A DNA stretch of 64,000 nucleotides, taken from contig PASP01000016.1 of the NCBI GenBank assembly GCA_002712005.1, positions 1 through 64,000 of the forward strand. The letters are read 5' to 3'. Numbering within the stretch: the first letter of the stretch is position 1; every line of letters starts with the position of its first letter. The stretch is from Halobacteriovoraceae bacterium (GTDB taxonomy: Bacteria > Bdellovibrionota > Bacteriovoracia > Bacteriovoracales > Bacteriovoracaceae). Shown here in pieces: positions 10,118 to 39,658 of the stretch. The notes beneath the pieces are model-generated. The model was not told where the DNA came from. It ran no database searches and was given only the letters and a program-made list of their open reading frames with translations. The position numbers were made by a program, and so were the translations under genes.

Positions 10118-10118
10118 T

Positions 10119-24259: not shown

Positions 24260-24775
24260 ATGTTTAAAAGTAAGATTTCCACTCCCCTACTCTTTATTCT
24301 CTTTTTATTCTTTGCCGTGAATTTCTTTTTGATAAGAGAAACGGCATTAAGCTTTGATAGAATCGCCTCTCAAAAAGAGTCATTAGCTTTAATCACTCAC
24401 CATAGACTCACTCAGCTTAGAAAGACAAATCCTCAAATAGGACACAACAAGATCATTTCCTCTCCTACATCTTTTATAAATAATAATAAAAGCTATTGTG
24501 CCTATAGAGATGGTTTGGCCTTTCAATTTCACTTTAAAAGAAATCAAGTAGAAACCGTTGTTTGGATGTTAGGAAATAAAGACTACTTTGAAGAAGAAGA
24601 ACTTCATCCTATACAAACAAGTCTTCTACAGGAAAAGGGAGCCTATTTTTGGAATATTTCTCTCTTAGGCAATCAACATCATTTCAAAATAATTCCCGCC
24701 TATGATAGCTCCTTTCTCATTTCAACGGCCAAGGGAAGACGAGAAATTATCTTTCTCGGTAAGTGCGCAACTTAG
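24260..24775 (+). CDS. Membrane-anchored, pseudopilin-like protein of unknown function
   Basis: The 171-residue product has an N-terminal membrane helix (PLLFILFLFFAVNFFLI), an amphipathic helix (DRIASQKESLALITHHRL) and a small beta-rich domain with two Cys (SYCAYRD and LGKCAT at the very end). It resembles minor pilins in layout but lacks the processing site. Its last 29 bases overlap the 3' end of the radical SAM gene on the other strand. With the genes at 21226 and 23530 it may belong to a pilus- or fibre-related group. Confidence 0.55.
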   Translation: MFKSKISTPLLFILFLFFAVNFFLIRETALSFDRIASQKESLALITHHRLTQLRKTNPQIGHNKIISSPTSFINNNKSYCAYRDGLAFQFHFKRNQVETVVWMLGNKDYFEEEELHPIQTSLLQEKGAYFWNISLLGNQHHFKIIPAYDSSFLISTAKGRREIIFLGKCAT

Positions 24776-25868
24776 TTGATAACTCAGACATTAGAGTCGC
24801 CCTGTCAAGAGGCTTGAGATCGTGTCCAATCGCTAAAAGACTTCTCGTAACTCTCTGCAATTCATGACCTGAACACATATCAATAATACTTAGGCCTACG
24901 TCTAATTCTTCTTCTGAGGAATAGTCCCAAAGGGAAAGCTCCTTGGGATCATAACAATTATTAACCGTTAAACGAATTCCCTTCTCTTCTGTAAAACGAA
25001 CAACTTCAGGAAGCTCATGCCAATTATTCTTCATCACTAAGAAGTGAAGAGTTAACCCTAGAGAGCTTTTTCCTTCTTTCTTCCTTAACTTTTCATAATC
25101 GAGAAGATCGTCCAAGGTTTGAAGAACTTGCTTGAGTTTCCCTCCTCTTCGAATTTCTCCATAGAGATCTTCATCGAGGCTATCGATAGAAAAAATGATA
25201 TTCTTAACGACAATTTTATCCAAGGCTTTTTTGATGGCCTGATTCCATTTCCAGAATCCATTAGTCGTTATTGACCAAAGAGTTTCAGGATTCACTTGGG
25301 ATACTTGCTCTATTAAACGATAAGTATCTTTTTGGATAAAGGGTTCTCCACTCAGTAATTCTATTTCTTTAATAAAGGGAAAAAACTCTTTCTCAGATCG
25401 TTCCCAAAAACCGATACGATCATAGAGTCCGTTTTCCATCATCCAGACATCACACATGGTACATTTTAAATTACATTTACCATTGAAATTGGCCGTCAAT
25501 TTTATAGGGAGATTCTTTTGATCTTTAGTTAAGTCAATTTCTGGAAAGAAAACATAATTATCAGCAGAAAGATGGCAAGCATCTGTGGCCACTTCTTTCT
25601 TACAAATTTCGATATTTCCGGTTAAAAACTCTTCTCTCCACTTTTGAAGATACTCTCCCTTCCAAATATCTTCTAAAGAGTCTTTTAGAATATTTCCAAC
25701 GACATGCTCTGTCCCTTTTTGACGACAAACCCCAATGTCTCCACTGGGATTAAGAATAAGATTACTAAAAGGTACGATGCAAAACTGAGAAGGTAAATCA
25801 TGGCGAGCAAAAAGCTCTTGAAGCTCTTTTGGAGTATAGGTCAATTTAAGTTTCTTTATCTTACTCAT
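24747..25868 (-). CDS. Radical SAM protein with N-terminal twitch domain, one cluster Cys missing
   Basis: The 373-residue product has an N-terminal auxiliary-cluster (twitch) module with Cys30 (QFCIVPF), Cys48 (IGVCRQKG), Cys89 and Cys98, then a radical SAM TIM-barrel with CNLKCTMC (Cys132, 136, 139). IELLSGEPF is the GGEP-like SAM contact. The family is N-terminal-twitch radical SAM, of unknown reaction. It is a clear paralogue of the protein at 38504 (shared SLEDIW/TWKEIW, LWSITTN, SIDSL). That paralogue has a further Cys (CNLC) where this one has Ser101 (CHLS), so its auxiliary cluster may have an open iron site or be absent. Confidence 0.85.
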   Translation of the reverse strand: MSKIKKLKLTYTPKELQELFARHDLPSQFCIVPFSNLILNPSGDIGVCRQKGTEHVVGNILKDSLEDIWKGEYLQKWREEFLTGNIEICKKEVATDACHLSADNYVFFPEIDLTKDQKNLPIKLTANFNGKCNLKCTMCDVWMMENGLYDRIGFWERSEKEFFPFIKEIELLSGEPFIQKDTYRLIEQVSQVNPETLWSITTNGFWKWNQAIKKALDKIVVKNIIFSIDSLDEDLYGEIRRGGKLKQVLQTLDDLLDYEKLRKKEGKSSLGLTLHFLVMKNNWHELPEVVRFTEEKGIRLTVNNCYDPKELSLWDYSSEEELDVGLSIIDMCSGHELQRVTRSLLAIGHDLKPLDRATLMSELSTKLRTYRER

Positions 25869-25930
25869 GTACGAAATTTCTTGGTAAAACTTCCTATTAT
25901 TCTATCATGGAGTGTCTATCGCTCTAAATT

Positions 25931-25960
25931 TTAATCCATCTTAATCTATCTTTATCCATA
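25931..25960. repeat. Three near-identical 10-bp tandem repeats in a divergent promoter region
   Basis: ttaatccatc, ttaatctatc, tttatccata follow one another between the divergent radical SAM gene (start 25868) and the S24/S26-like gene (start 26003). The same gap carries ctaaattttaat (25924-25935), which also occurs at 35862-35873 in front of the second S24/S26-like gene. Possible binding site of a common regulator; not proven. Confidence 0.35.
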
Positions 25961-26002
25961 GTTTGGCTAGAAAAAAGGACAAAATGACCCTATAGTATTG
26001 AT

Positions 26003-26398
26003 ATGAGTAAAAGCCTTGCCCATTCAGAAGAAAACCTCATCATGGTTTATATCGACAAATTTGAGTTCGCTACCATAAAGAAATATCTCGCACTGAGAGG
26101 GCCTGTTTTTTGTAAAGTTGTCCATGACGATATGTACCCTCTCATAAAGTTTCATGAAAAACTAAAAATCGTAAATTCTTCAAATGACCCGAAAAAGAAT
26201 GATTTGGTCGCGATCTGGGATAAGGGCCAGCTCCATTTTGGGATTTGTCTTGAGTGTTCAGATCATGCAATAAAAGTGCGATTTATCAAAAAGAAAGAAA
26301 TATTAGAAGTCGAAAAGCTCTATTTCCTAGGAAGAGTTGCCAATAAGAAAATCCCACTCCATTTTCGCTGGAATATATTTTCAAGATTTATCAAATGA
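26003..26398 (+). CDS. S24/S26-peptidase-like protein without the catalytic serine
   Basis: The 131-residue product has the hydrophobic-strand layout of the S24/S26 beta-fold: VFCKVVHDDMYPLIKFHEKLKI aligns with the S.SMEPLI motif of the protein at 35944, followed by KKNDLVAIW (the GD.V.. strand). The nucleophile position is Asp43 rather than Ser, so peptidase activity is unlikely. There is no signal peptide or membrane segment. Such small S24/S26-like proteins accompany PqqD and radical SAM genes in some peptide-modification loci; role unknown. No Shine-Dalgarno is visible. A tatagt box ends only 6 bases before the ATG, hinting at a leaderless mRNA. Confidence 0.6.
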   Translation: MSKSLAHSEENLIMVYIDKFEFATIKKYLALRGPVFCKVVHDDMYPLIKFHEKLKIVNSSNDPKKNDLVAIWDKGQLHFGICLECSDHAIKVRFIKKKEILEVEKLYFLGRVANKKIPLHFRWNIFSRFIK

Positions 26399-27856
26399 CT
26401 GGAGGAACTTCTCTTTCTTGCATTCAATATAGAAAGTTCTCAGTTCAGGAAATACCTCAATAAAATTCTTTCGATAACGTTTATCGTATTCGTTAACAAA
26501 TACATAGAAGTCCGCCATCATTTTCTTGGTCATAATTGAGCTTTCAGAAGAAACTTCTTCTGTCGCTTTCATCCACTGATAGATACGGTCTAACTTATTC
26601 ATTTCGTGCTCAGAAAATGAGTTCGAATTCTCTTTCATAAATAAGAGGCATCCTTTCATTTCTTCAAACCAAACCTCTCGATCACTACTATACTTTAAAA
26701 GGTTCGCTCTTAAATATTCAGGATCTCTTAAATAACTTAAATCTAGAATTAGTTCAGGATGCTTTTCTTTTAACTTCACTACATACTCAAGTAAGTCTTT
26801 AAATTGGGGAACACTGAGAAGATTAAAGGTCACCATTAAAATCATTCGGTCACAAGCTTTCATATCTAATATTAATTCCAGATTCTTTTGAAACTTTCCA
26901 AAATTAAGACCTTGCCTTATATACTCTGCTTGTTCTCCATAGGTATCTACACTTACATAAATTTCATTAGCAAAGAGAGCTCCCTTCTCCTTGATCTCTT
27001 TCACCTTTTTTAAATATCTTCCAATACGCTCATCATCTATTCCAAGGTTAGAATTGATAGCAAAGGTTAAATTCTTCTGAGGATGAAGACTTATGTAATC
27101 GAGCAGTCGGTAGGTATGCTTGCTCAATAAAGGCTCTCCGCCAGTAATACGTAAAGTATGAAGACCTTGCCAGATATCAGGTAGCCAATTCCAAAAAGCT
27201 TCAACAAATGGATTCTCATCAAAAGCACTTAAATCCCGCTTCCATTGGTTGTCATTTTCTCTATGATGATGAAAAAAAAGGGGGTATGGGCCATAGTCAT
27301 TCATTTCTTTTTGAATGGAACTGGAAATATCGGCCATACAGTAACTGCATGAAAAGTTGCAGGCCTTATCAAACATAACCTCTAGATAGTGAGGATTATA
27401 GTTGCCTGTTGAACCACAATCCAAAACTTTTTCAAAGTAAGGAAAAGACCATGGATCTGATGACTTTATCACACGATCTGAATAATGTTCACCTGGCGTA
27501 TCTTCGATATTCCAACAATACTGACACTCACTAGGCCTTTTACCTTCTAACATCTCAGATCGTACTTCTTTCTTATATGAAGTATTATGAAGAGCGCTAG
27601 GATTATTTCTTATCTCATCAATATCAATAATATGACGTTTAGGATGATGGCAACTATGATTCGTTCCATGAACTAAGTCTAAAGTGAGCTGAGTCCATTT
27701 TGCCATACAAAATGAAGGCGAAACCTCATTGAGAAGTCTAGATACATGCTTGCGCCCCTCATCTGTTGAAGGGTCTTTCGTTTGACGTATCTCCTCCCAA
27801 TCAAGGAGCTTTCTCTTTAGATCCTTATCGTAGCTAATGCTCTTCTCCTCACTCAA
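26381..27856 (-). CDS. Radical SAM protein with N-terminal twitch domain (full Cys set)
   Basis: The 491-residue product has auxiliary-cluster Cys50 (SFCMAKW), Cys69 (NHSCHHPKR), Cys111 and Cys114 (SECQYCWNIE) in an N-terminal twitch module, then the radical SAM motif CNFSCSYC (Cys166, 170, 173) and RITGGEPLLS. The CHHP element and long spacer are typical of N-terminal-twitch radical SAM proteins, whose chemistry is not known. The start is TTG 27856 because no ATG precedes the first Cys; this is uncertain. It overlaps the S24/S26-like gene at its 3' end by 18 bases and diverges from the pqqD-like gene. Confidence 0.85.
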   Translation of the reverse strand: MSEEKSISYDKDLKRKLLDWEEIRQTKDPSTDEGRKHVSRLLNEVSPSFCMAKWTQLTLDLVHGTNHSCHHPKRHIIDIDEIRNNPSALHNTSYKKEVRSEMLEGKRPSECQYCWNIEDTPGEHYSDRVIKSSDPWSFPYFEKVLDCGSTGNYNPHYLEVMFDKACNFSCSYCMADISSSIQKEMNDYGPYPLFFHHHRENDNQWKRDLSAFDENPFVEAFWNWLPDIWQGLHTLRITGGEPLLSKHTYRLLDYISLHPQKNLTFAINSNLGIDDERIGRYLKKVKEIKEKGALFANEIYVSVDTYGEQAEYIRQGLNFGKFQKNLELILDMKACDRMILMVTFNLLSVPQFKDLLEYVVKLKEKHPELILDLSYLRDPEYLRANLLKYSSDREVWFEEMKGCLLFMKENSNSFSEHEMNKLDRIYQWMKATEEVSSESSIMTKKMMADFYVFVNEYDKRYRKNFIEVFPELRTFYIECKKEKFLQSFDKS

Positions 27857-27954
27857 AGCTTGATCTCTAACTAGAAGTAAATATATACTAGCTTTAGAAT
27901 TTTAATTTAGCTATGACCCATTATACCATAGGCTCATGCGCTGGAGGATCAATC

Positions 27955-28233
27955 ATGTCCATATTAGATCAAAATATAAGCCTTAAAGAAGACCTCGTGG
28001 CCAGAAATAATGACGATGGTACTGTTGTTATCATGAGAATGGATGAATCAAGTCTTTTCTACAAGATAGAAGGTGTTTCAACTGAAGTTTGGAAAGGCTT
28101 AAATAAAGGAATGAGCTTAAAAGAAATCTTTGCTCAAATTAAAACTCAATATGATGTTGAAGACGAACAGTTACTCTCAGATATCACGAAATTTATCAAA
28201 GACCTTGAGTCTAGAGAGCTCATTGCGAACTAA
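27955..28233 (+). CDS. PqqD-like peptide-recognition (RRE-type) protein
   Basis: The 92-residue product has the PqqD pattern: a beta-hairpin (VVIMRMDESSLFYKIEGVSTEVW) then helices (LKEIFAQIKTQYDVEDEQ, LSDITKFIKDLESREL). PqqD-family proteins bind leader peptides and present them to radical SAM or other modifying enzymes. ATG 27955 has GGAGG 7 bases upstream and gives the usual ~90 residues. An in-frame ATG at 27913 would add MTHYTIGSCAGGSI without a ribosome site. Its position between a twitch radical SAM gene and a sugar-aminotransferase gene is unusual. I found no certain precursor peptide nearby. Confidence 0.8.
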   Translation: MSILDQNISLKEDLVARNNDDGTVVIMRMDESSLFYKIEGVSTEVWKGLNKGMSLKEIFAQIKTQYDVEDEQLLSDITKFIKDLESRELIAN

Positions 28234-29407
28234 GCTGAATAACCTTGCTTATTTTCTCTTGTTCTTTATCTAGCGAAATATCGAGATCAATAATAATTTT
28301 CAAACATTGACCTAAAGTCATAACTGTAGGTAGAAACTGGGCTTTATCATATCGATACTCCTTATCAGTGAGACGATAAGGATTTAACCCTGGCACAAAG
28401 TAGTCTCTCTTGCTCATTGACTCCATCCATTGCCAGCACGCATGTGCAGGTTTGAATTGGGCGGGTAAGGCCTTAATATTTTCTTTAAGAAGCTTTTTCG
28501 CTAAAAGAGCGGCTTCCATAGGATCAGAACATTTTAAATGAATACAGGTAGAAGTATCACCTTTTTGATCATGTCCTTTATAGTAAGAAACTCCAGCACT
28601 CTCAAAAGCTTTAACCCACATACTCTTTCTTTCTCTCAACTTTTCTAAGATTTTAGGTAGTTTAAAGAGCTGTTCAGAGAGCATGGCAGAATTAATTTCA
28701 TTTAAGCGAGAGGAGATCCCGAAGAAGGGAGCTATATCCTTAAACTCCTCTTTCATGGTTTGGCCATACTGTGAAGCTGTATCATGAGTGATAAAGGCCC
28801 TCTTTTTTATTTCCTGATGCATACCTTTTTTTATAACGAGTAATCCTCCCTCACCACAGGAGATGACTTTATCCATATTAAAGCTAAAGGCACCGAAGTC
28901 TCCGATCGTTCCGACTTTTTGACCTTTATATTCACCACCACAGGCTTGAGCCGCATCTTCGATTAGGTATATTTGCTTTTCTTTACAAAAATCACTCAAA
29001 GAATCCAATTCAGAAACAAGACCATCCATATGAACAGCAATTATCGCCTTCGTTCTATCAGAAAAGACCTTTTCCACTTCTCTTATATCTAAAGTTAAAG
29101 ACTCATCAATATTAGCAATAACAGGTATCGCTCCAACTTGCATTACTGCACTCGCTGTGGCGACAAAAGTATAGGATGGAATAATAACCTCATCCCCTGG
29201 TCCTATACCAAAAGCGGCCATACCTACAACGAGAGCATTTGTACCACTCGTGAGTAAGAGAGAAAAATCGGTTTCTAAATAGTCACACCACTGTTTCTCA
29301 CATTTGCTTGTTCGAGTTTCAACCCCAGGGCCTTGATAGCGAAAGTAATTTCTTGTTTTAATAACTTCACTTACTTCTTTGATTTCTTTTTCGTCTACCC
29401 AATACAT
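28220..29407 (-). CDS. DegT/DnrJ/EryC1/StrS-family PLP aminotransferase
   Basis: The 395-residue product has TSGTNALVVGMAAFGIGPGDEVIIPSYT-type cofactor elements: TSGTNALVVG near residue 54 and VIIPSYTFVATASAV. IEDAAQACGG binds the PLP ring, and the Schiff-base Lys is in FNMDKVISCGEGG. These enzymes transaminate keto-sugars linked to nucleotides, or cyclitols. It is last in a minus-strand operon (35811 to 28220) with glycosyltransferases and a carbamoyltransferase, so an amino-sugar or aminocyclitol precursor is likely. The 3' end overlaps pqqD-like by 14 bases. The gene before it ends 2 bases upstream of this start. Confidence 0.88.
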   Translation of the reverse strand: MYWVDEKEIKEVSEVIKTRNYFRYQGPGVETRTSKCEKQWCDYLETDFSLLLTSGTNALVVGMAAFGIGPGDEVIIPSYTFVATASAVMQVGAIPVIANIDESLTLDIREVEKVFSDRTKAIIAVHMDGLVSELDSLSDFCKEKQIYLIEDAAQACGGEYKGQKVGTIGDFGAFSFNMDKVISCGEGGLLVIKKGMHQEIKKRAFITHDTASQYGQTMKEEFKDIAPFFGISSRLNEINSAMLSEQLFKLPKILEKLRERKSMWVKAFESAGVSYYKGHDQKGDTSTCIHLKCSDPMEAALLAKKLLKENIKALPAQFKPAHACWQWMESMSKRDYFVPGLNPYRLTDKEYRYDKAQFLPTVMTLGQCLKIIIDLDISLDKEQEKISKVIQLSSQ

Positions 29408-29409
29408 GC

Positions 29410-30627
29410 CTATTTCTCCAATGCCCCATAACAGCGATAGAATTGCATGAGAAGAGGATCACTCAAGCTGTGAAAAGCTTTCTGTGGATTATCTTTCTTT
29501 AATTCTTCTCTTTGGGCCAATAATTTTTTTCCAAATTCTGTGAGTTTTAACTGCTCTCTACTTCCTTTTCCCTCTTTAAAGAAATTCTGCATACAGGACA
29601 ATATCTGAGAATAAGAAAAGAAATCCGTCTCTGAATATTTTGCCTGGAGGGAAAGCTTTAAATTTTCTGCAACCTCTTGTGGATCACATTCAAGAGACTC
29701 TCCATTATGATAAATAGGAAAAGTAAAAACTCCAGAAGAAAGCTTCTCATTATAATTCTTATGCCCACCCCAATCAGAGAGGACAAGTGGGGCTCCCATT
29801 CTCAAGGCCATAAAAGCGGCCATTCCAAAGTTTTCATCACTATGAAATGAAGGACTACAAAATACAAAATCTTTATTTCTCCACTTCTTTGCAATCTCTT
29901 CTCGAGGACAAAAGCCATGAAAATGAATATTCTGATCTCTACCTAACTTTGAAACGAGTGACTTTAGCTCTTCTAAATAACTCTTTTCACTTTTTAGTCC
30001 TAAGTTTGGATAGTCTAAGTAATCTTCTTTGCCATAGAAATGAAGCTGAAACTCTCTTTTATCTTCTTTGATCAGTAGATCAAATCCTTTAATAAGCTGC
30101 TCTAAATTCTTCTGTCTACTGATTCGACCTATAAAAACGAAATCTAAGATATTCTCTTTGGGAATAATCTCAATCTTTTCCACATCAGGTGACGAAAAGG
30201 GCTGGAGAAAGAACTGAATATTCTCAAAGCATAAATCTAAACTTAGTTTATCTCCCTCACAGGTTCCAATAAAGATATCATCTTGCCTTAGAAGTTCACC
30301 TATTTTGAGTTCGTATAATGGCCAAAGACCCAAGGTGGCTTGGTTATGTAGATAAAATCCCCAAGGAGCGTTGATCCCCAAAGAGTCTCTAATGATCCTC
30401 AACCATTGAGCCATTTTTCCGTTGAAACAAGAAACGATAATGAGATCACACGAAAAAAGCTCTTGTCTAAATAGTGAGGGTCTTCCCTCATCAACAGTAA
30501 TCACCTTTACCTCACAACCCCTTTGTTGACCATAGTCCTCCCATAGCCTTTTGATATAGGGAATAATCTCTTCCATAGAGGTCCAAACAAAATTAGCTTG
30601 TGAATAGAGTAGAACGATTTTTTTCAT
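29410..30627 (-). CDS. GT4-family glycosyltransferase
   Basis: The 405-residue GT-B fold protein has VFIGRISRQKNLEQLIKGFDL (donor-domain start), YGKEDYL, NIHFHGFCPREEIAKKWRNKD and CSPSFHSDENFGMAAFMALRMG, the E-x7-E region of GT4 enzymes. It transfers a sugar from a nucleotide donor. The late LVLSDWGGHKNY is shared in style with the second GT4 at 34498 (ILTAWGGFSSF), so the two probably act in one glycan pathway. It overlaps the upstream carbamoyltransferase gene by 4 bases. Confidence 0.85.
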   Translation of the reverse strand: MKKIVLLYSQANFVWTSMEEIIPYIKRLWEDYGQQRGCEVKVITVDEGRPSLFRQELFSCDLIIVSCFNGKMAQWLRIIRDSLGINAPWGFYLHNQATLGLWPLYELKIGELLRQDDIFIGTCEGDKLSLDLCFENIQFFLQPFSSPDVEKIEIIPKENILDFVFIGRISRQKNLEQLIKGFDLLIKEDKREFQLHFYGKEDYLDYPNLGLKSEKSYLEELKSLVSKLGRDQNIHFHGFCPREEIAKKWRNKDFVFCSPSFHSDENFGMAAFMALRMGAPLVLSDWGGHKNYNEKLSSGVFTFPIYHNGESLECDPQEVAENLKLSLQAKYSETDFFSYSQILSCMQNFFKEGKGSREQLKLTEFGKKLLAQREELKKDNPQKAFHSLSDPLLMQFYRCYGALEK

Positions 30628-32414
30628 TTGCTTATCATCACATTGTCTAAAACGAGAAATTGAACTTCACTATTTTCAAAAAATCGAAGAACATCCTTGT
30701 AGTCTTCAACAATAGGTTCTCCCATTATATTTAAACTGGTATTGAGAAGAATACTTTCTCCAAATGACTTTTGACATGCTTTCAAAAGCTCATAATATCG
30801 CTTATTTTGACCTTTCATCACTGTTTGCATTCGGCAAGTTCCGTCAACATGAGTAACATCACTTAGGAGTTGTTGATATTCCTTTCTTACAGGTATTGTG
30901 AAGGACATAAAAGGATTTTGAAAGCCTTGAGGAATATCAAAATAATGATGGGCCTCTTCCCAAATGACGCTGGCTCCGTAGGGTCGAAAATCTTCTCTAA
31001 ACTTTATATGAGAATTGAGATAGTCCTTCTTCCCTTTCAAATCAGCTCGACATAAAAGACTTCTATGACCCAACGCTCTGGGTCCGCACTCACTCTGTCC
31101 CTGAAACCAAGCGACCACTGCACCATCTTTGAGAAGCTCTGCAGTTTGCTTCACAAGTTCAGAGTATCCTCCTTCATTTTCTTCAAATACCTGGCATTGA
31201 TAGGAAGAAAGATTGTGATGATCTATTTGATCATTGTGATCGATCCCATAATTGGACCTTTGTCCACTCCAACTCATAGGATGCCACACCAAGCTTTCTT
31301 CATTATAAGCTTGAGAAAATGCGGCTCCAAGAGAAATAGACTCATCTCCAGGAAAAGGAGAAACGTATATCTCTGGAAATATCGCTTTCTTATAGAGTTT
31401 AAAATTTGCGGTACAATTTAGAGCACAACCTCCAGTCATGGCCAAAGGATGCTCCCCTAGGGATTGACTCCATTTCTCAATGGCGGACTCCATAAAAGAA
31501 AAGAGGTAATTTTCAAATTCATATTGAACGGAAGCTGCTAAATCTCTCCATTTTAGATTTTCTAAAGAATTTTCCCAACATTTCTTCTTATTGATCGAAT
31601 CAATTTCTCCTAACTCTTTTGCGAGAACATGGGAAAACGAAGAATCCCAAGGCCATTGCTCCTGCCAGGCATGTAAATTCATTTTTTTATTTTTCGAATA
31701 CGCGGATTTATTTCCATAACCCGCTAAACCCATCACCTTTCCAGAAGAGAGAGGATCGGAAAAGATCAACTCTGCGGCTTTCTCATAGAGAGAACCCATT
31801 CCCTCTGAAAACTTCTTATTTTCAATTGAAGAGCTCTTATAGGAAAGAAATTTCTTTTCCAATAACTTAAGCTTCACTCCATCCCAAAAGTATAGGCTCA
31901 AGTGCTCTATTTTGTTTCCTACCCCTTTATAGGTATGACTATGTTCACGATGAAAAGGATCTCTTTCATAGAATCCTAGATCATTTCCTCCTCCATCCAT
32001 TACCAAAATATAAGATTTTGCAAAAGGCAGGGTCGCAATCGCGGCATAAGCATGAGCAGGGTGATGGGAAATCTGAAGTAGATTTTTATTGAAGTACGAG
32101 GAACACTGTCCCAATCCTTTTAAGTCTAACATTTCAAAAAAGGGAGAATATTTATTTAAGAGATCTTCCATAAATTCAGGAGGGTTCATATCTCTATTTT
32201 CACTAATCCTGAGCCCTTCCCCAATAAGATTGGGAATATCTAATTTCAGAAGCGATTGAAGCGGCCATTGTCCTGAGTATTTCTTTCTATCAAATCTTTC
32301 CTGTATGGCCATGGTCCATTCATAATTCTCTTTATTTCCCCTATCAATCGTAAGAAGGGTTGCATTTGAATTATGAGTATTCTTCCCAATCCCTAAATAT
32401 TTCATCGACTTCAT
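30624..32414 (-). CDS. NodU/CmcH/TobZ-family carbamoyltransferase
   Basis: The 596-residue product has an N-terminal Kae1-like domain with HHPAHAYAAIATLPF (metal His) and ILVMDGGGND. A C-terminal YrdC-like part contains WFQGQSECGPRALGHRSL and FREDFRPYGASVI, all hallmarks of O-carbamoyltransferases that use carbamoyl phosphate and ATP. Family members carbamoylate sugars of Nod factors or antibiotics such as tobramycin and cephamycin. The start has GGGGAG 6 bases upstream and overlaps the preceding gene's stop. In this operon it most likely decorates a sugar or aminosugar. Confidence 0.9.
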   Translation of the reverse strand: MKSMKYLGIGKNTHNSNATLLTIDRGNKENYEWTMAIQERFDRKKYSGQWPLQSLLKLDIPNLIGEGLRISENRDMNPPEFMEDLLNKYSPFFEMLDLKGLGQCSSYFNKNLLQISHHPAHAYAAIATLPFAKSYILVMDGGGNDLGFYERDPFHREHSHTYKGVGNKIEHLSLYFWDGVKLKLLEKKFLSYKSSSIENKKFSEGMGSLYEKAAELIFSDPLSSGKVMGLAGYGNKSAYSKNKKMNLHAWQEQWPWDSSFSHVLAKELGEIDSINKKKCWENSLENLKWRDLAASVQYEFENYLFSFMESAIEKWSQSLGEHPLAMTGGCALNCTANFKLYKKAIFPEIYVSPFPGDESISLGAAFSQAYNEESLVWHPMSWSGQRSNYGIDHNDQIDHHNLSSYQCQVFEENEGGYSELVKQTAELLKDGAVVAWFQGQSECGPRALGHRSLLCRADLKGKKDYLNSHIKFREDFRPYGASVIWEEAHHYFDIPQGFQNPFMSFTIPVRKEYQQLLSDVTHVDGTCRMQTVMKGQNKRYYELLKACQKSFGESILLNTSLNIMGEPIVEDYKDVLRFFENSEVQFLVLDNVMISK

Positions 32415-33460
32415 AGAAGCTCCCCTTCTCCTAAAAGTCTCAATTTATATATCCCCCTTTTTAGAAAAGAGGATCGTGAATCTTCTTTGAAAATATTGAG
32501 CATTTGCTCAAGGTGATCGAGATGTAACGTAACTTCACTACTTAAATCAAATTGAAAGAAATGAGTATAAAGGCCCCAAATCTCCCAAGAAACCTGTTCA
32601 AAGAAAGTATCTAAGAGAACCGGTTTATTTTCCACAAAAGCCTTTAATGTAGAAAGGGTCTCCTCAAAGAGATCAAGATGAATTGCACTTCCCATCCAAA
32701 TTTGAGGATAACATAGCGCCAAATAATGATGAGTTATCATCGGTTCTGATTTTAAAGTATCATTTTCGGATTTCTTTTCAACTTTCCTATTGAACAAGAA
32801 CGTATTCAATATTGAAAATAAGCTCTCCCATTCAATCTGCTGAGTCTCATCATCTATTTTAAATTCCTTTAAAATACCATTTAATAAATCTTCTGCTCCA
32901 ATATAGGATATCGATTTCATAGATGCGAGCTGTTGAAAACGCCTAACTTTATTCTTTCTCAGCAGAGGATTTTCTTTCATGCGATGGTAATCATTTAGAA
33001 TCCAGTTAAGGAGAAATGCCTTCTTTAACGGATTTAATTTATCCACTCGAAAAGACTCTAATAATAGAGGATCACGAGCAAGTTCCAAGGAGGAACCATA
33101 GGCCATGAAATGACTAAGAACATCCTCCTCGTAAAAGAGAACTTCTCCAACAAAAGGAAATACTAACCTCAAAGACTTTACGACGATCAATATTTGTTTC
33201 TTCCTAAAGGGTGAAACTTTTTTCGAGAAATAGAATGTGATATCCAAATCGGATAGCCCAAATACCTCTTCTTTAAAATACACACTATTTCTTGCCCAAA
33301 CTTTTGCACGTATAAAAAGAATGAGTAACAAAAAGCGTGCTACAAAGATTGGCATTAAATAAATCAAATGCGTGACGAAGCTAGGAAGTGCCTTTCCCAT
33401 ATAAATAGAAAGTCGTTGAATTTTCTTTTTCCTAGCGTACATTCTCTTTATTTTCCCCAT
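32411..33460 (-). CDS. Nucleotidyltransferase-like protein
   Basis: The 349-residue product has a basic N-terminus with a hydrophobic stretch (LIYLMPIFVARFLLLILFI), then VFGLSDLDITFYF (Gly68, Ser70, Asp71, Asp73). This fits the helix-turn plus DxD-type metal site of polymerase-beta-like nucleotidyltransferases. The rest is helical and unfamiliar. Related uncharacterised nucleotidyltransferases occur near PqqD proteins in lasso-peptide-type loci, so a link with the PqqD protein is possible but inferred. It overlaps the upstream gene by 29 bases and the carbamoyltransferase gene by 4. Confidence 0.5.
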   Translation of the reverse strand: MGKIKRMYARKKKIQRLSIYMGKALPSFVTHLIYLMPIFVARFLLLILFIRAKVWARNSVYFKEEVFGLSDLDITFYFSKKVSPFRKKQILIVVKSLRLVFPFVGEVLFYEEDVLSHFMAYGSSLELARDPLLLESFRVDKLNPLKKAFLLNWILNDYHRMKENPLLRKNKVRRFQQLASMKSISYIGAEDLLNGILKEFKIDDETQQIEWESLFSILNTFLFNRKVEKKSENDTLKSEPMITHHYLALCYPQIWMGSAIHLDLFEETLSTLKAFVENKPVLLDTFFEQVSWEIWGLYTHFFQFDLSSEVTLHLDHLEQMLNIFKEDSRSSFLKRGIYKLRLLGEGELL

Positions 33461-34457
33461 AAAGTTTTTGCGCTATGACTTGTGCCATCTTTTCAAATTT
33501 ATTTTGTGTGTAGAAGACTTTAAAATAATCATCTATATTTCTGTCTCCATTACCTTGATCATTAAAGAACTCCCCTGAGGGGAATTGAAAGTCATCAAAT
33601 AAAAGTTTCTTAAGCTCTGCATTTATATGCTTTCCTCCCCTATGGATACTCATAGAGTGATAGGGTCCCAAATCAATATTCATAGATTCGTTATTCTTTT
33701 TATCTGGTAATTCAATATTGGAAATTCCTTGATTGAGATAATAATGGTTCACAAACGAATCACTAAACCAATACTTATAGGGATTAAAATTGAGAAAGGA
33801 TGAGCTTTCCCTATATTCACTTATCAGGCCACCAAGTTTATGAAGGCCAACAAAATCAACTTCTCGTCCTTTAAAGAGAGAGTCAGACATTCTAAAGGCT
33901 TGGGAGCGATCGTAATCTAAATAATCTTCCCCTCTTAAAATATTCAACGAGGTCGTTACAAAGACGTTTCCTTTCACTGAATTCAGGATCTCATTGAGTT
34001 GAATGATTGAATCATCTGTATGTTGATATTTCGAAAAGGTGAGAAAGAGAAAAAGATTTTCTTTCAAGGGTCCTTCTTTCTTTCCTCTTATTTTAAAATA
34101 AAAGATTCTCTCTTTCCAAGAGTCAGGCACTAAAGGCTCAAATTCCTCATCAATTATAATTTTACTTATTAATCCTTTGGGAGAGGGAAAACGTTGGAAA
34201 AATTTTAATAAATGGAGAACCCCGTCTCTTAGCAACACATGACTAAAAGCATTCAAAGACGTTAGGGATTTAATTTCAAAAGAAAAAATGGGTCTCAGAC
34301 GACTAAAATATTTTCTCGAATGGGGCGCTAAGAATTCCAAGTACTTTTCATCAAGAGTATCTTCTCGATTCCATGAGTTTCTTTTATTGAAACCCGCTGT
34401 CTCTTCATTTGCGTTATGTCCGAAACATGGGATGGAGGCTTCTATTTTTTTAGTCAT
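33432..34457 (-). CDS. Operon protein of unknown function
   Basis: I do not recognise a family for this 341-residue protein. It is soluble, without a signal peptide. It has a strand-helix pattern in the middle (LKENLFLFLTFSKYQ, GNVFVTTSLNIL), a His-containing YHSMSIHRGGKHI near residue 270 and an Asn/Asp-rich loop (FFNDQGNGDRNIDD). The layout could be a divergent glycosyltransferase or sugar-modifying enzyme. Its tight coupling (40 bases after a GT4, 29-base overlap with the nucleotidyltransferase gene) marks it as part of the same pathway. Confidence 0.55.
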   Translation of the reverse strand: MTKKIEASIPCFGHNANEETAGFNKRNSWNREDTLDEKYLEFLAPHSRKYFSRLRPIFSFEIKSLTSLNAFSHVLLRDGVLHLLKFFQRFPSPKGLISKIIIDEEFEPLVPDSWKERIFYFKIRGKKEGPLKENLFLFLTFSKYQHTDDSIIQLNEILNSVKGNVFVTTSLNILRGEDYLDYDRSQAFRMSDSLFKGREVDFVGLHKLGGLISEYRESSSFLNFNPYKYWFSDSFVNHYYLNQGISNIELPDKKNNESMNIDLGPYHSMSIHRGGKHINAELKKLLFDDFQFPSGEFFNDQGNGDRNIDDYFKVFYTQNKFEKMAQVIAQKLYGENKENVR

Positions 34458-34497: not shown

Positions 34498-35811
34498 TTA
34501 TTTATATTCTTTATTAATCGCTCTTCTAGAGTAATTCTTATAAATATCGTGATAAAAGAGTGAATAGCCACCTTGGGCAGATCGAAAGGGGGAATGAGGA
34601 TTATTCTCAAATTGAGCACAAAGTTTACTAAATTTTGGAGTATACCCCCCAAATCTTTTTCGATTACAATTTTTGAAAATATTTTTAAGTTTAGATGATA
34701 CGGCCTGGATTCCTAAAATTTCATGAGCCGTAGTTGCCATCAAAGTACGATCAGATGAAATTTCACTATTAGATTCCTTTTTTATAAAAACAGAAGCCAT
34801 GGCCTTAAAAGTATTATGAGACAGCGGTAAGTTTCTATCTCCCCTATTTTCAACATCAACTAAATCAACCCAACTTGGTAAGTAATGACCAAAAGAAGAA
34901 AAACCTCCCCAAGCGGTAAGAATACAGGGCAAACCTGTGCAAAGGGCTTCAGCGGGAGACATTCCGTAATCTTCGTCATTATGGGTACTCAGGGAGATGT
35001 AGCAATCTGCCGCATTATAAACTTCAAATAGCTGGACTTGATTACAGTCTCCTAAATAAAGGATATGCTCCTGCAGTTCATATTCCTTGATCGCCTCTTC
35101 CCAATGAAAATAGAATGTTCCTGGTAAAGCTTCTTTTCCTAGATAAGGAATAGCTAAATCATCCATCGGTCCAGCAACAACAAGCTTAGCCTTTTGATCG
35201 AAATTCTTAATGAAGGTCGAAAAGTTGCTTAGAAGTGTAGTAATATTTTTTTGATAACTTAATCTACCGGTATAGAGAAAGATAAATTCTTTTTTAAAGT
35301 TGTACTTCTCTCTGGCCTTTTCTCTAACCTCTTCACTATAGAAATAATCAAGATCAGATACAGGAAAAGGGATAACATCACATTCATCCTCTTGATGAAA
35401 GGAATCAATTAGAGCCGCTTGGTTATGGGAAGCGCAAATGAACTGAGTCTTAAACTCCTTCAAATCCTCTTCCATTTCCCTCCACTGTAAACATTGCAGG
35501 ACATAGTCTCCGAAAATATGAAAGACAAGCAAAGGCAGTTCTAAACTATTTTTTTGATAATAGCTTCTAAGAGCTTTAATAATAGGTGCCGGATGAGGAT
35601 AGTGATCGATAAAAGAGATAGCTGTAGGTTTTATTTTTATCAACCTAAGGACCAATGCATGAGCTTCGAATACCGTTATACTGGGATTCACCCTTTCAAA
35701 ATAAACGCTCTCATCAGGCATTATTTCGTAGCCCTTTGCCAAATTACTGGTAATGCCTTGGCAACTTTTCCATTCAGACGCTCCCTCTTTTTGAATTATA
35801 ACAATGCTCAT
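34498..35811 (-). CDS. GT4-family glycosyltransferase
   Basis: The 437-residue GT-B fold protein has LYTGRLSYQKNITTLLSNF and KLVVAGPMDDL at the donor domain, and HILYLGDCNQVQLFEVYNAAD and LSTHNDEDYGMSPAEALCTG, which carries the E-x7-E type signature (DYGMSPAEAL). It is the first gene of the minus-strand glycan operon. Its start faces the divergent S24/S26-like gene with a 132-base AT-rich gap. Acceptor and donor are unknown. Confidence 0.85.
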   Translation of the reverse strand: MSIVIIQKEGASEWKSCQGITSNLAKGYEIMPDESVYFERVNPSITVFEAHALVLRLIKIKPTAISFIDHYPHPAPIIKALRSYYQKNSLELPLLVFHIFGDYVLQCLQWREMEEDLKEFKTQFICASHNQAALIDSFHQEDECDVIPFPVSDLDYFYSEEVREKAREKYNFKKEFIFLYTGRLSYQKNITTLLSNFSTFIKNFDQKAKLVVAGPMDDLAIPYLGKEALPGTFYFHWEEAIKEYELQEHILYLGDCNQVQLFEVYNAADCYISLSTHNDEDYGMSPAEALCTGLPCILTAWGGFSSFGHYLPSWVDLVDVENRGDRNLPLSHNTFKAMASVFIKKESNSEISSDRTLMATTAHEILGIQAVSSKLKNIFKNCNRKRFGGYTPKFSKLCAQFENNPHSPFRSAQGGYSLFYHDIYKNYSRRAINKEYK

Positions 35812-35861
35812 GCTCGACCTTTCGACGCTTAAATGTTTGTAAAATATTTTCTTCGATTCAC

Positions 35862-35873
35862 CTAAATTTTAAT
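35862..35873. promoter_or_regulatory. Shared 12-mer in the 35.8 kb divergent promoter region
   Basis: ctaaattttaat is identical to 25924-25935. The following atatctttataatatcatgatatcc holds a TATAAT-like box. The gap serves the minus-strand glycosyltransferase operon and the plus-strand exporter operon. Confidence 0.3.
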
Positions 35874-35943
35874 ATCTTTATAATATCATGATATCCTATA
35901 TCTATAGTCAAACTTAGATATATGAACACGAGGAGAAGCCTTT

Positions 35944-36339
35944 ATGGGCAAAGCCACGAAAAGTCGGCATAAAGCAGAAGATTTCGATCTTTTGGCCCTA
36001 AGGCGAATACTTGAGAAAAGCGGTTCCCACTCATTGAGTGTCGTCTCAGATTCTATGGAGCCTCTTATAAAAGTGGGCGAAAGAATTACTCTCGCTCCTC
36101 CTCAAAAGGAAGAGCTCAAAGTTTTTGATGTTATTCTCTTTGATCAGGCCAATCGACTCAATTGCCACTTCGTAACACGAATCAATCATCAAAAGGATAG
36201 CTACACCACGAGATCCCTAAAATTTCCCCACTCCCAAGATTATCCTATAAAATGGGAACAAATAATTGCCTTCATCCCAGCAAAGAAACTTAACTGGTTT
36301 CACAAATTAAAAGTTATTTGGGCCGAGATTAGAGCATAG
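35944..36339 (+). CDS. S24/S26-peptidase-like protein with catalytic serine
   Basis: The 131-residue product has VVSDSMEPLIKVGERITLAPP with the S26/S24 nucleophile at Ser37, then LKVFDVILFD (the G.DvV.. strand). In the second box, CHFVTRINHQKDSYTTRSLK, the usual His or Lys before Arg-Ile is Thr, so an intact dyad is doubtful. There is no membrane anchor, unlike true signal peptidases. Shine-Dalgarno GAGGAG 7 bases upstream of the ATG. It is 7 bases before the ABC permease gene and is probably needed with export or maturation of the product. Homologue of the protein at 26003. Confidence 0.65.
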   Translation: MGKATKSRHKAEDFDLLALRRILEKSGSHSLSVVSDSMEPLIKVGERITLAPPQKEELKVFDVILFDQANRLNCHFVTRINHQKDSYTTRSLKFPHSQDYPIKWEQIIAFIPAKKLNWFHKLKVIWAEIRA

Positions 36340-36346
36340 GTTTATA

Positions 36347-37105
36347 ATGAATATTTTTACGCGACAACTCTATTCACTCACATTTGCCAATATGAAGGCG
36401 CGCTATAGAAAGACAGTAGCAGGATTTATATGGGTTATCTTAAATCCCATCATTCTCTATTCGGTGCAAAGCCTAGTGTTTAGAAAAGTTTTGAGAATTC
36501 AGCTTCCCGATTACTCATTATTTCTCCTAGGGGGATTACTCCCTTGGATTTTTATAACGAATACTCTGGAGATGAGTATCCCCTACCTCTTTAATGCCCA
36601 TAATTTATTAAGAGGTTTTCGAATCAATCCACTTCTCCTTATTCTCAGTCAGGTACTCGATAACTTTATTAATTTCTTGATCGCCTTTTTTCTCATTCTC
36701 TTACCTGTAATCTTTCTTACCGAGGATAATACATCCGCGTTTTACTTGCTTCCCATTCCCATTCTCATTCTATTTTTGGCCATCGCTGCTCTCTCCTCGC
36801 TGGCCTCTCTCATGAATGTCTTCTACCGAGATACTAAATTTGTGCTCTCTTTTGGGCTAAATATTATGTACTTCATAACTCCTATTTTTTATCCCGTAGA
36901 ATATGTTCCCAAGCAGTACCAATGGATTATAAACCTCAATCCTCTCTACTATCTCATCGAAGCCTTTCGAAGTGCAGTATATGGATTTAATTCACAGATA
37001 TTTTGGATGGCCTGTCTAAAAGCATTTCTTGTAACCCTAGTCATCATTATTATCTCATGTCTTTACTGGAATAGGAGAAAGAATGACCTCTACTACTACA
37101 TCTAG
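36347..37105 (+). CDS. ABC-2 type permease for polysaccharide-like export (Wzm-like)
   Basis: The 252-residue product has six hydrophobic segments and the typical N-terminal amphipathic stretch ANMKARYRKTVAGFIWVILNP found in Wzm/TagG/KpsM permeases. FYLLPIPILI and YFITPIFYPVEYVP are also family-like; the latter matches the ITPI.YP motif of O-antigen and teichoic acid exporters. It forms the membrane channel with the ATPase encoded by the next gene, which it overlaps by 23 bases. Confidence 0.9.
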   Translation: MNIFTRQLYSLTFANMKARYRKTVAGFIWVILNPIILYSVQSLVFRKVLRIQLPDYSLFLLGGLLPWIFITNTLEMSIPYLFNAHNLLRGFRINPLLLILSQVLDNFINFLIAFFLILLPVIFLTEDNTSAFYLLPIPILILFLAIAALSSLASLMNVFYRDTKFVLSFGLNIMYFITPIFYPVEYVPKQYQWIINLNPLYYLIEAFRSAVYGFNSQIFWMACLKAFLVTLVIIIISCLYWNRRKNDLYYYI

Positions 37106-37895
37106 TGATCACATTCTAGAGATTAGAAATCTTCATCTCTCTTTTGATTTAGACCTGCAAAAAGGTCATACCATCAGAGATGCTTTCGTGAATCTAATTA
37201 ATCATCCCGTACAATCAATTTTAGGAAAAAGAGAAGTTCATCCTGTACTTAAAGATATCTCCTTGAATTTAAAAAAAGGAGATAAATTGGCCTTGATTGG
37301 AGAAAATGGTTCAGGAAAAACAAGTCTTTGTCGCTGTATAGCTGGTATGATCGTACCTCAGCAAGGGACTATAAATAGAGTAGGCTCTATTCAGGCCGTC
37401 TTTAGTACGGCAAGTGCTATTCACTTCTCTTTGACCGGAAGGGAGAATGCCTACTTATTGGGAGAACTTATTTTTCCTCATCTCTCAAAGAAAGAATTAT
37501 CTTCTCGCATTGAAGAAGCCTTAGACTTTTCAGAGTTAGGAAAATTCTTAGAGGCCCCTTTCTATACCTACTCTAGAGGTATGCAAGCCCGTCTTTTTCT
37601 CTCGGTTGTAACCGCCTACCCTACAGAACTTTTAATTCTCGACGAAGTCTATGATGGAGCAGATGAATTCTTTCAAGTTAAAATGCAATCCCGTATGCAT
37701 GATGTGATTAAAAATTCGGGAGCTGTCATTTTCATCTCCCACAATGCAGAACTTGTCAGTGAAGTCTGCAATCGGGCCATTGTCCTCCATGAAAATGAAG
37801 TTCTCTTTGACGGCGAGAATATTCCCAAAGCTCTAGCCCTTTATAAGGCCCTTCATTATGGAGGCCAAAAAACTGGTCAATTTTCAAAGACTTAA
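37083..37895 (+). CDS. ABC transporter ATPase for polysaccharide-like export (Wzt-like)
   Basis: The 270-residue product has Walker A GENGSGKTS, the signature YSRGMQARL, Walker B LLILDEVYDGAD and the switch His in VIFISHNAEL. The N-terminal LEIRNLHLSF plus the FVNLINHPVQSILGKRE insert is typical of KpsT/TagH/Wzt ATPases that energise glycan flipping. It lacks the C-terminal carbohydrate-binding domain of some Wzt proteins. With the upstream permease it would export the finished product of this locus. Confidence 0.9.
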   Translation: MTSTTTSSDHILEIRNLHLSFDLDLQKGHTIRDAFVNLINHPVQSILGKREVHPVLKDISLNLKKGDKLALIGENGSGKTSLCRCIAGMIVPQQGTINRVGSIQAVFSTASAIHFSLTGRENAYLLGELIFPHLSKKELSSRIEEALDFSELGKFLEAPFYTYSRGMQARLFLSVVTAYPTELLILDEVYDGADEFFQVKMQSRMHDVIKNSGAVIFISHNAELVSEVCNRAIVLHENEVLFDGENIPKALALYKALHYGGQKTGQFSKT

Positions 37896-37979
37896 CTTTT
37901 ATACCCGTAAAATAACTACGTAATTTTAATAACTTAAGGCAATTTCTGACTCTTTATTTTTCATTTAAAGAATTAAAGG

Positions 37980-37985
37980 TATAAT
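37980..37985 (+). promoter_or_regulatory. Probable -10 box before the S74-domain gene
   Basis: A perfect TATAAT lies 31 bases before the ATG at 38017, in a 121-base AT-rich gap after the ABC ATPase gene. No good -35 is seen at 16-18 bases. It suggests that the S74 and radical SAM genes can be transcribed separately from the exporter. Confidence 0.4.
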
Positions 37986-38016
37986 ATTTGAGTATTCACA
38001 TAGCGGAGATAATACC

Positions 38017-38490
38017 ATGTCGGACACTTCAGATAAGAAAAACCCTCAACCTCAATCTTCTCAAGCAAAGAAGCCCTACCAATTTGGAGGGATTAAAGAC
38101 TTTAATTTAGAAGAAATCGAAAATGAGGTTCTCAATGACAGTGTTTACTTAGATGTATTCGCAGGGTCTGATATCCGTTTTAAAGAAAATATTGAACCTC
38201 TCAAGGGTGGACTTGAAGAGCTAAAAAATATTCAAGCTTATGAATATCACTATAAAACAGACGAATTTCCTGAGCACAATTTCCCAAAAGAGAAGACTGT
38301 TGGGGTAATGGCCCAACAATTAGAAAATATTCTTCCTCTGGCCGTTAAAGAAGACGATAAAGGAATGAAGTATGTAAACTATGCTTCCTTAGCCCCTCTT
38401 CTTATCGAAGCTGTCAAAGAGCTATCGGCTAAGGTAGACCAACAAGCTGAAGAAATAAATTCTCTCAAAATTGAGCTAAAGAATAAGTAG
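38017..38490 (+). CDS. Stand-alone S74 intramolecular-chaperone/autoprotease domain protein
   Basis: The 157-residue product consists of a ~50-residue polar N-terminus and a full tail-spike chaperone domain: GSDIRFKENIEPL (Ser/Lys autoprotease pair of the S74 family), EYHYKTDEF, VGVMAQQLENILPLAV, MKYVNYASLAPLLIEAVKEL and a C-terminal coiled coil. This domain normally ends long phage or surface fibres, trimerises them and cuts itself off. Here it has no fibre and no signal peptide. It sits 13 bases before a radical SAM gene and could be that enzyme's substrate or a trans-acting scaffold. Shine-Dalgarno GGAG precedes ATG. Confidence 0.82.
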   Translation: MSDTSDKKNPQPQSSQAKKPYQFGGIKDFNLEEIENEVLNDSVYLDVFAGSDIRFKENIEPLKGGLEELKNIQAYEYHYKTDEFPEHNFPKEKTVGVMAQQLENILPLAVKEDDKGMKYVNYASLAPLLIEAVKELSAKVDQQAEEINSLKIELKNK

Positions 38491-38503
38491 CTCTTTCCCT
38501 TCT

Positions 38504-39658
38504 ATGAAAAATCTCATCTTGGAGCATCCTCTTTTAAAGAAAAGGCGAAAGGAGCTCCAAGAGAATATTAAAAAAATTGAAGCCCTAGGTTTTAATCCCC
38601 ATACATTCTGTGCCATGCCCTTTGTGAATATCATCTTAGAGCCAGATGGCTCGGTTGGATTCTGTCGCCACAAAGGAACCGATCATCGTTTAGGAAATCT
38701 AAGAGATCATACGTGGAAAGAAATTTGGAATGGTGAAGCGGTCAAAAAATGGAGAAAAGAATTTCTCGATTCAAACCCAAAGACTTGTACTCAAGAAATC
38801 AAAGATATAGGTTGCAATCTGTGTCCCGAGCTCGCGAAACTTTCTCCTCCTAGTAAAGAAGACTATCATGTAGAAATGAATCGCCCTTTGCGTCTGACGG
38901 CCAATCTCAATGGTCAATGCAACCTACAGTGCCAAATGTGCGATGTCTGGCAACTTCCCAATGGTTATTATCAAGAGGATAATTTTTGGTCACCTGCTCG
39001 TTCAGAGCTTTTTCCGTTTCTCAAAGAAATTGATCTTCTCTCCGGTGAGCCTCTCATTCAACAAGATACTTTCAGATTAATTGATGAAGTCTCCGAACTT
39101 AATCCTGATTGTCTTTGGTCCATTACTACCAATGCGCATTGGAGTTTCAATCAAAAAAGAAAAGACTACCTGAATAAAATTTCAATCAAAAATCTTATCC
39201 TCTCTGTCGATAGCCTCAATCCTGATGTCTATGCAAAAATCAGAAAACCAGGAAACCTATCTGTCGTCTTAAAGACAATTGAGGATCTTGTTCACTACGA
39301 TAAAGAAAGAATAGAGACAGGACTTGGTTCCATGAATATGAATCTCAACTTCCTTATCCAAAAAGATAATTGGACAGAAGCTGCTGAGGTTATCCATTTT
39401 TGTCTAAAGAGAAATATTCATCCCTTTCTTACCTTTTGCTACACCCCATCTGAATACTCTTTATTAGATTTGAGTGAAGAAAAACGCATTGAAATTCTCC
39501 ATTATTACTTAAATACTCTGAACTGGGGTGAGTTAACCCTGATTAAGAGAATTACAGCCCCTCTCATTCACTCTCTGCCAAAAATGGCCAAATATGAAGC
39601 ATTGACGGCCCTTGAAAAGAAAAAGATTAAATACGAAAATACTCTGAATACTTTTTAA
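38504..39658 (+). CDS. Radical SAM protein with N-terminal twitch domain
   Basis: The 384-residue product has auxiliary-cluster cysteines at 36 (TFCAMPF), 54 (VGFCRHKG), 95, 104 and 107 (GCNLCPEL), then the radical SAM motif CNLQCQMC (139, 143, 146) and IDLLSGEPL. It is a paralogue of the protein at 24747-25868, with near-identical blocks around LWSITTN and SVDSLNPDVYAKIR. It has the extra Cys that the paralogue lacks. The reaction is unknown. Its pairing with the S74-domain gene (13-base gap) and the exporter upstream links it to the same pathway. Confidence 0.88.
   Translation: MKNLILEHPLLKKRRKELQENIKKIEALGFNPHTFCAMPFVNIILEPDGSVGFCRHKGTDHRLGNLRDHTWKEIWNGEAVKKWRKEFLDSNPKTCTQEIKDIGCNLCPELAKLSPPSKEDYHVEMNRPLRLTANLNGQCNLQCQMCDVWQLPNGYYQEDNFWSPARSELFPFLKEIDLLSGEPLIQQDTFRLIDEVSELNPDCLWSITTNAHWSFNQKRKDYLNKISIKNLILSVDSLNPDVYAKIRKPGNLSVVLKTIEDLVHYDKERIETGLGSMNMNLNFLIQKDNWTEAAEVIHFCLKRNIHPFLTFCYTPSEYSLLDLSEEKRIEILHYYLNTLNWGELTLIKRITAPLIHSLPKMAKYEALTALEKKKIKYENTLNTF

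Follow-up and report, generated by a model that had tools for sequence, protein, structure and literature searches.

What is made by the genes between positions 24,747 and 39,658 of this stretch of Halobacteriovoraceae DNA, and do they form one system at all? The stretch, referred to below as the window, comprises 64,000 nucleotides and lies on contig 17 of a 3.96 Mb genome (G000; G and L numbers designate genomes and loci). A first-pass annotation had described a 15-gene biosynthesis-and-export locus here and suggested an exported glycan or glycopeptide as its product. All 15 genes were found where it had placed them, including three radical SAM genes with N-terminal twitch domains (PF13186, NF033640), and the G+C content of the cluster (~0.35-0.38) is near that of its surroundings. 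Our results point to a leader-guided pathway of peptide modification, like those of ribosomally synthesized and post-translationally modified peptides (RiPPs), which acts on the S74-domain protein encoded near the end of the cluster; we give this reading a probability of roughly three in four. The first-pass annotation passed over this S74 gene, and its role as the likely precursor shifts the balance from a glycan towards a peptide.

Concerning the first part of the question, the cluster is one real conserved system and not an accident of position. Five of six congeners (L038-L042) share the gene order rSAM1, S26a, rSAM2, PqqD, GT4a, carbamoyltransferase, nucleotidyltransferase, Unk341, GT4b, S26b, Wzm and Wzt (names as in Table 1), and in three of these five the S74 and rSAM3 genes come after Wzt. 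Wzt is absent in congener G006, where the contig ends, and the S74 gene of G003 is on a separate contig. Beyond the genus, the same families are linked but rearranged, with the core present in 17 genera of Bdellovibrionota. Since the order is kept in the congeners and the linkage in distant genera, the arrangement reflects more than chance. Orthologues scattered without linkage had been named as the outcome that would undo the idea of a single system; apart from one genome discussed below, they were found linked.

The S74 protein is very probably the leader-guided substrate. It had been described as a lone S74 domain, and the domain is indeed present, but it is preceded by 50 residues which include a near-invariant stretch (32 proteins) that is more conserved than the domain itself. 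The consensus of this stretch is Y-x-F-G-G-I-x-x-F-N-L-x-x-I-E-x-E-V-L-N-D-S-V-Y-L-D-V-F-A-G, followed across the predicted cleavage site by S-D-x-x-F-K. Y21, F23, G24, L31, I34 and E35 are invariant in the S74 alignment (A1), and both Y[LI]DVFAG and [SC]DxxxK occur in all 32 proteins. One relative (L111:9983-10408) carries a natural nucleophile swap of the cleavage Ser to Cys (DVFAGCD), and another (L048:16740-17249) has two tandem YxFGG leader motifs. No other convincing small open reading frame (ORF) with the leader, that is, no separate short precursor peptide, was found in the window. Of 369 genomes scanned in the phylum, 31 have the N-terminal motif, and these come from 17 genera and three families. 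Across 84,980 species, 24 loci were obtained, and all those with a named lineage belong to Bacteriovoracia, Bdellovibrionota or the old 'Deltaproteobacteria'; the patterns used were strict, and distant relatives elsewhere could escape them.

The presence of the motif is closely paralleled by that of PqqD, which was found in 30 of the 31 S74-motif genomes and in 7 of the 338 others (Fisher p ~3e-36, uncorrected for phylogeny). An rSAM2 orthologue (threshold of at least 620 bits, the next score down being 556 bits) is present in 22/31 and 1/338, respectively, the single case being G006, and Unk341 in 30/31 and 51/338 (81 genomes in all). The order rSAM2-PqqD-S74 occurs in L047, L048, L101, L112 and L113, and the S74-rSAM3 order is also seen in L039-L041, L097, L099, L100, L105 and L116. 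In L116, L122 and L124, PqqD and S74 are naturally fused in a single polypeptide. The best match of the PqqD profile among solved structures is TbiB1, a lasso-peptide leader-binding protein (E 5e-11), and among NCBIfam models the lasso PqqD scores best, below its cut-off. A structural model of the L116 fusion, built on a 38-sequence alignment, had a mean predicted local distance difference test score (pLDDT) of 91. The region with the leader (residues 111-130) scored 87-92 with a strand at 122-126, and the conserved block (residues 131-150) 64-66. In Foldseek comparisons, the PqqD part of this model matched the leader-bound structure of TbiB1 (5v1v), while the match for the S74 part was the self-cleaving domain of MyRF (7dc3). 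The role of PqqD as the leader-binding element, presumed in the first-pass annotation, is well supported by the TbiB1 match, the pairing with S74 and the fusions. Two general marks of a RiPP pathway are present, namely a ribosomal precursor with a conserved N-terminal leader and a PqqD-type RiPP recognition element (RRE) linked to it.

The leader is not confined to S74 proteins. Genomes that lack the S74 motif have short ORFs close to PqqD in which [YF]xFG[GE][LIV] is combined with a variable tail; the tails are Pro/Gly-rich in L135 and L136, Cys-rich in tandem copies in L142, and short in L134, L140 and L147, and a looser match is found in L183, L185 and L187. When 4,749 small ORFs were ranked with a profile built from S74 leaders only, L134, L140, L147, L136 and L135 came first (E values from 0.018 to 3.2 with Z set to 10,000, the best reversed control having E 4.1), which by itself is modest support. 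In L141, a single protein (9801-10373) consists of the leader, EFAS, a Gly/Ser-rich stretch and S74; a YcaO gene follows 2 bp behind, then a nitroreductase gene, and PqqD is divergent. This protein has the appearance of a precursor for an azole-type RiPP in which S74 is the follower. A GT2 glycosyltransferase and a LanM-type domain protein (DUF4135, at 31.0 and 28.3 bits against a cut-off of 29) are encoded in L185 and L187, the order in L142 is PqqD-GT2-precursor-precursor, and in L135 a JmjC-type protein is encoded near the leader peptide. We take all of these neighbours to be RiPP-type or plausible peptide-modifying enzymes, and the case for the leader on other peptides is strengthened by them. 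As a separate observation, the Pro/Gly-rich tails of L135:8300-8563 and L136:11198-11455 are collagen-like, and a small protein adjoining the former (L135:5988-6485) resembles, by eye, iron/2-oxoglutarate oxygenases; prolyl hydroxylation of these peptides is possible.

These results bear on the alternative that the cluster is a surface glycan locus, in which a carbamoylated polysaccharide is exported by Wzm/Wzt, the S74, PqqD and radical SAM proteins are accessory or regulatory, and no peptide is modified. Two GT4 enzymes, DegT, the carbamoyltransferase, the nucleotidyltransferase and the ABC-2 exporter are all present, as in Wzm/Wzt-dependent O-antigen and capsule loci with their GT4 enzymes and sugar tailoring, and the GT4b-Unk341 pair is found in many genomes that lack the S74 motif. 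Those loci differ from the cluster, which has a peptide precursor, an RRE and twitch radical SAM enzymes. No initiating sugar-phosphate transferase was found among the cluster proteins in a Pfam scan of the proteins encoded from 18,014 to 40,730; it could be elsewhere in the genome. Against a polysaccharide, too, PqqD tracks S74 almost perfectly, with three fusions, and the leader is common to peptides beside RiPP-type enzymes. We consider this alternative unlikely. The earlier suggestion of a glycan or glycopeptide did not take in the absence of DegT from the congeners or the occurrence of GT4b-Unk341 without S74; a sugar on the product stands at even odds.

In the pathway that we propose, PqqD would bind the S74 leader as an added beta-strand, like the B1 proteins of lasso peptide synthesis, and offer the twitch radical SAM enzymes the block E37-G50. 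A sugar would be added and decorated by GT4b with Unk341, GT4a, the carbamoyltransferase and DegT, and removal of the leader would fall to S26b, a protein with an LppS-like signal-peptidase fold. The S74 domain would form trimers and, as a self-cleaving follower, break its own chain between G50 and S51; the product would be exported by Wzm/Wzt. The assignment of E37-G50 as the released core is tentative and somewhat doubtful.

As regards the sugar step, the GT4b and Unk341 genes are same-strand neighbours in 35 of 40 cases. No family match was obtained for Unk341, and sequence searches for solved structures of Unk341 and the nucleotidyltransferase-like protein gave nothing useful. A model of Unk341 (pLDDT 86.5) weakly resembled both GT-B enzymes and the accessory secretion protein Asp1 in its fold (Z at most 6.5), so that its GT-B-like identity is a lead only. 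From the adjacency and this weak likeness, a reasonable guess is that GT4b is the catalytic glycosyltransferase and Unk341 a substrate-holding partner. The pairs of PqqD and glycosyltransferase genes in L142, L185 and L187 agree with a sugar step. Wzm and Wzt come after the S26b gene in the window, and 13 of the 33 S26-like genes examined have a Wzm on the same strand no more than 150 bp away. The glycan/export module (GT4b-Unk341, S26b-Wzm-Wzt) is also found without the S74 precursor.

With respect to processing, S74 cleavage at the Ser of SDxxxK has been established for Bd3182 of Bdellovibrio (PMC10769870), and by analogy the self-cut in the present protein is predicted to fall between G50 and S51. 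S26b resembles archaeal-type signal peptidases (TIGR02228, below the cut-off), and its Ser/His/Asp spacing is 38/24, compared with 39/25 in LppS of the linear polyphosphorylated peptide (LPP) family, where leader removal by LppS requires its RRE (PMC13381572). This predicted peptidase was seen in 15 of 31 S74 loci, many of which are cut by contig ends. The 13 precursors tested all have the pattern [VIALE][FY][AGST] soon after the leader (the mean in shuffles was 3.1; the pattern was chosen post hoc); it resembles a -3/-1 signal-peptidase site and could also be a modification site. When the leader is aligned to LppA, I34-E35 fall at -3/-2 (F-3 and E-2 in LppA), but D, E or K is common at residue 36. 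The alternative site between A49 and G50, at the pattern just described, would fit general signal-peptidase specificity better than this register does.

Several points weigh against a leader-guided pathway acting on the S74 protein. We infer its chemistry, cleavage sites and product, and the docking of the leader on PqqD is drawn from model confidence and secondary structure only. The S26b site (between A49 and G50) and the S74 site (between G50 and S51) may be adjacent, in which case nothing would remain between them as a core. The PqqD and S74 genes of the window belong to different operons and are separated by 9.8 kb, the genes are split over two contigs in G020, and this PqqD is missing from G075, a genome with the S74 motif. 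None of the co-occurrence counts is corrected for genome relatedness. The leader similarity to peptides without S74 is short, and only three of them reach E 0.02-0.03 with the profile built from S74 leaders only. Finally, Wzm/Wzt and carbamoyltransferases are usual in glycan loci.

We also considered that the S74 protein might be a trans-acting chaperone for the pilin-like fibre encoded at 21226-23517, with the enzymes decorating the fibre and PqqD only recruiting the chaperone. S74 is a fibre trimerisation domain, five large S74 fibres are encoded in the same genome, several genera repeatedly have pilin-like genes close to the system, and in L098 a pilin gene stands directly ahead of S74. A pilin-like gene is, however, within reach in only 11 of the 31 S74 loci, although several of the contigs are short. 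No signal peptide was seen on the S74 protein, whose N-terminus is charged and which has just 50 residues before the domain and no long fibre part. The YxFG leader on unrelated peptides and the S74-YcaO adjacency in L141 would also go unexplained, and we regard a chaperone role as quite improbable. Still less probable is a peptide-derived redox cofactor, made in the manner of pyrroloquinoline quinone (PQQ) or mycofactocin by excision of the Tyr/Asp/Phe block: the combination of PqqD with twitch/SPASM-type radical SAM enzymes and the invariance of that block suit it, but PqqD and PqqE of the PQQ pathway are only distantly similar, the linkage to exporter and sugar genes suggests that the product is secreted, and related precursors have large, variable tails. 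A phage origin was rejected, as viral contigs contained no relative of the S74 leader and PHROG matches were limited to the S74 domain and generic radical SAM, and so was antiviral defence, for which there were only weak viperin matches through the radical SAM fold.

Table 1. Positions in the window of the cluster genes, parts of the S74 protein and two neighbouring genes
Feature	Position	Strand	Basis
rSAM1, twitch radical SAM	24747-25868	-	PF13186 N-terminal, PF04055
S26a, S26-like, catalytic Ser lost	26003-26398	+	HDDMYP replaces SxSMxP
rSAM2, twitch radical SAM	26381-27856	-	NF033640, 304 bits (cut-off 170), full length
PqqD, RiPP recognition element	27955-28233 (listed ORF start 27913)	+	PF05402, E 1.5e-11; best solved match TbiB1
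DegT aminotransferase, accessory	28220-29407	-	PF01041; absent from congener clusters
GT4a glycosyltransferase	29410-30627	-	PF00534
NodU-type carbamoyltransferase	30624-32414	-	PF16861, PF02543
Nucleotidyltransferase-like protein	32411-33460	-	SDxD invariant in 21 orthologues; weak solved match
Unk341, possible GT-B-like partner of GT4b	33432-34457	-	No family; model pLDDT 86.5; weak GT-B and Asp1 matches
GT4b glycosyltransferase	34498-35811	-	PF00534; Unk341 same-strand neighbour in 35/40
S26b, soluble, signal-peptidase-like, candidate leader peptidase	35944-36339	+	TIGR02228, E 1.2e-8, below cut-off; Ser37, His +38, Asp +24
Wzm-like ABC-2 permease	36347-37105	+	PF01061 (ABC2_membrane)
Wzt-like ABC ATPase	37083-37895	+	PF00005
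S74 precursor protein, 157 aa, proposed leader-guided substrate	38017-38490	+	PF13884
S74 leader Y21-E35, YQFGGIKDFNLEEIE	38077-38121	+	YxFG motif also on unrelated peptides beside PqqD
S74 conserved block E37-G50, EVLNDSVYLDVFAG, candidate core peptide	38125-38166	+	Core role conjectural
S74 self-cleavage motif S51-D-x-x-x-K56	38167-38184	+	Predicted cut between G50 and S51
rSAM3, twitch radical SAM, directly behind S74 gene	38504-39658	+	PF13186, PF04055
Giant type IV pilin-like fibre protein, membership unsettled	21226-23517	+	N_methyl motif GFSLAE; recurrent neighbour
Membrane protein with C-terminal TPR, membership unsettled	19210-21069	+	TPR; recurrent neighbour

In rSAM1 and rSAM3, the SPASM/twitch domain (residues 30-90 and 36-96) stands ahead of the radical SAM domain, and both match NF033640, the 'twitch domain-containing radical SAM protein' model, below its cut-off. 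The true start of PqqD is probably the later one in Table 1, as judged from the orthologue alignment. Both S24/S26-fold proteins of the first-pass annotation exist, but only S26b keeps the catalytic residues, and S26a is probably a pseudo-peptidase. The nucleotidyltransferase-like protein gave no Pfam match; the invariant residues of its S-D-x-D motif are S70, D71 and D73, and its sole solved-structure match is a weak one to a putative nucleotidyltransferase. The pilin-like protein has 763 residues, with a prepilin motif and a fibre-like body, and its relatives near the system in several genera are accompanied by the TPR membrane protein. Promoter-like TATAAT sites ahead of the S26b and S74 genes were no commoner than in shuffles and were given no weight. 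Elsewhere in the genome, on contigs 3, 7, 18 and 19 (L058-L062), five S74 proteins with open frames of 1239-1917 aa are likely adhesive, like the MAT fibres of Bdellovibrio.

No described RiPP class was found to match the cluster, and the first-pass conclusion that no standard RiPP, O-antigen or capsule gene set fits it was borne out. The closest described system is the LPP family of Bacillota (Popov et al. 2026, PMC13381572). Both have a discrete PqqD-type RRE, a nucleotidyltransferase, glycosyltransferase-rich loci, a conserved Tyr-led leader with variable precursor C-termini, and a soluble protein resembling archaeal-type signal peptidases with a like Ser/His/Asp spacing, which is the leader peptidase in LPP and a candidate for that role (S26b) in the cluster. 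In contrast, the LPP leader reads YxxPxVLxHQxIxFETxxS and that of the cluster YxFGxI...IE, LPP has an HprK-like kinase whereas Pfam revealed no kinase among the cluster proteins, the LPP exporter is MsbA-like and not Wzm/Wzt (ABC2_membrane with ABC ATPase), and the described LPP core set includes no S74 precursor, twitch radical SAM or carbamoyltransferase. As for split lasso pathways (B1/B2/C), the RRE is nearest to lasso B1 (TbiB1), and the lasso motif YxxPxL and the cluster leader share an aromatic residue at 0 and an aliphatic one at +5, with Gly in the cluster for the lasso Pro. However, neither a B2 cysteine peptidase nor a macrolactam synthetase C was found among the proteins scanned, and the precursor carries an S74 domain. 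Recognition in the cluster is like that of an LPP or lasso pathway, yet the cluster is a member of neither. The MAT fibres of Bdellovibrio (PMC10769870) and MyRF share the S74 domain with its SDxxxK self-cleavage motif, but have long beta-helical or other N-terminal parts in place of the 50 residues with an RRE-type leader. Apart from the cluster, the same genome has a second PqqD locus, on contig 12 near 110,890 (L195:7840-19001), with PqqD, a SPASM radical SAM, an NTP_transf_5 nucleotidyltransferase, a kinase-like protein (weak PEPCK_ATP match), an S24-like protein and a very large protein (at least 2403 aa); it resembles the LPP gene set, and similar loci are L188-L191, L193 and L199.

In the open-access literature, we found no paper linking S74 to RiPPs or describing a PqqD fused to a precursor. 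The cluster may represent a new RiPP class of Bdellovibrionota, a proposal for which we put the odds just short of even. Such a class would combine a YxFG leader with a lasso-type RRE, sometimes joined to the precursor in one protein, and some of its precursors would have a self-cleaving, trimerising S74 follower. Its core would be freed by two cuts, one by an S26-like protease and one by the precursor itself, and a single type of leader would serve modifying enzymes that are interchangeable (twitch radical SAM, YcaO, LanM-type, glycosyltransferase). If this is true, S74, a folding domain of phage tails, predator fibres and MyRF, would have been recruited into a natural-product precursor, making that precursor self-processing, and the NF033640 twitch radical SAM enzymes would gain a concrete candidate substrate. 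The PqqD-S74 fusions are ready-made constructs for the study of leader recognition, and the YxFG leader provides a handle for finding further clusters of this kind in a predatory phylum from which little has been described in the way of natural products.

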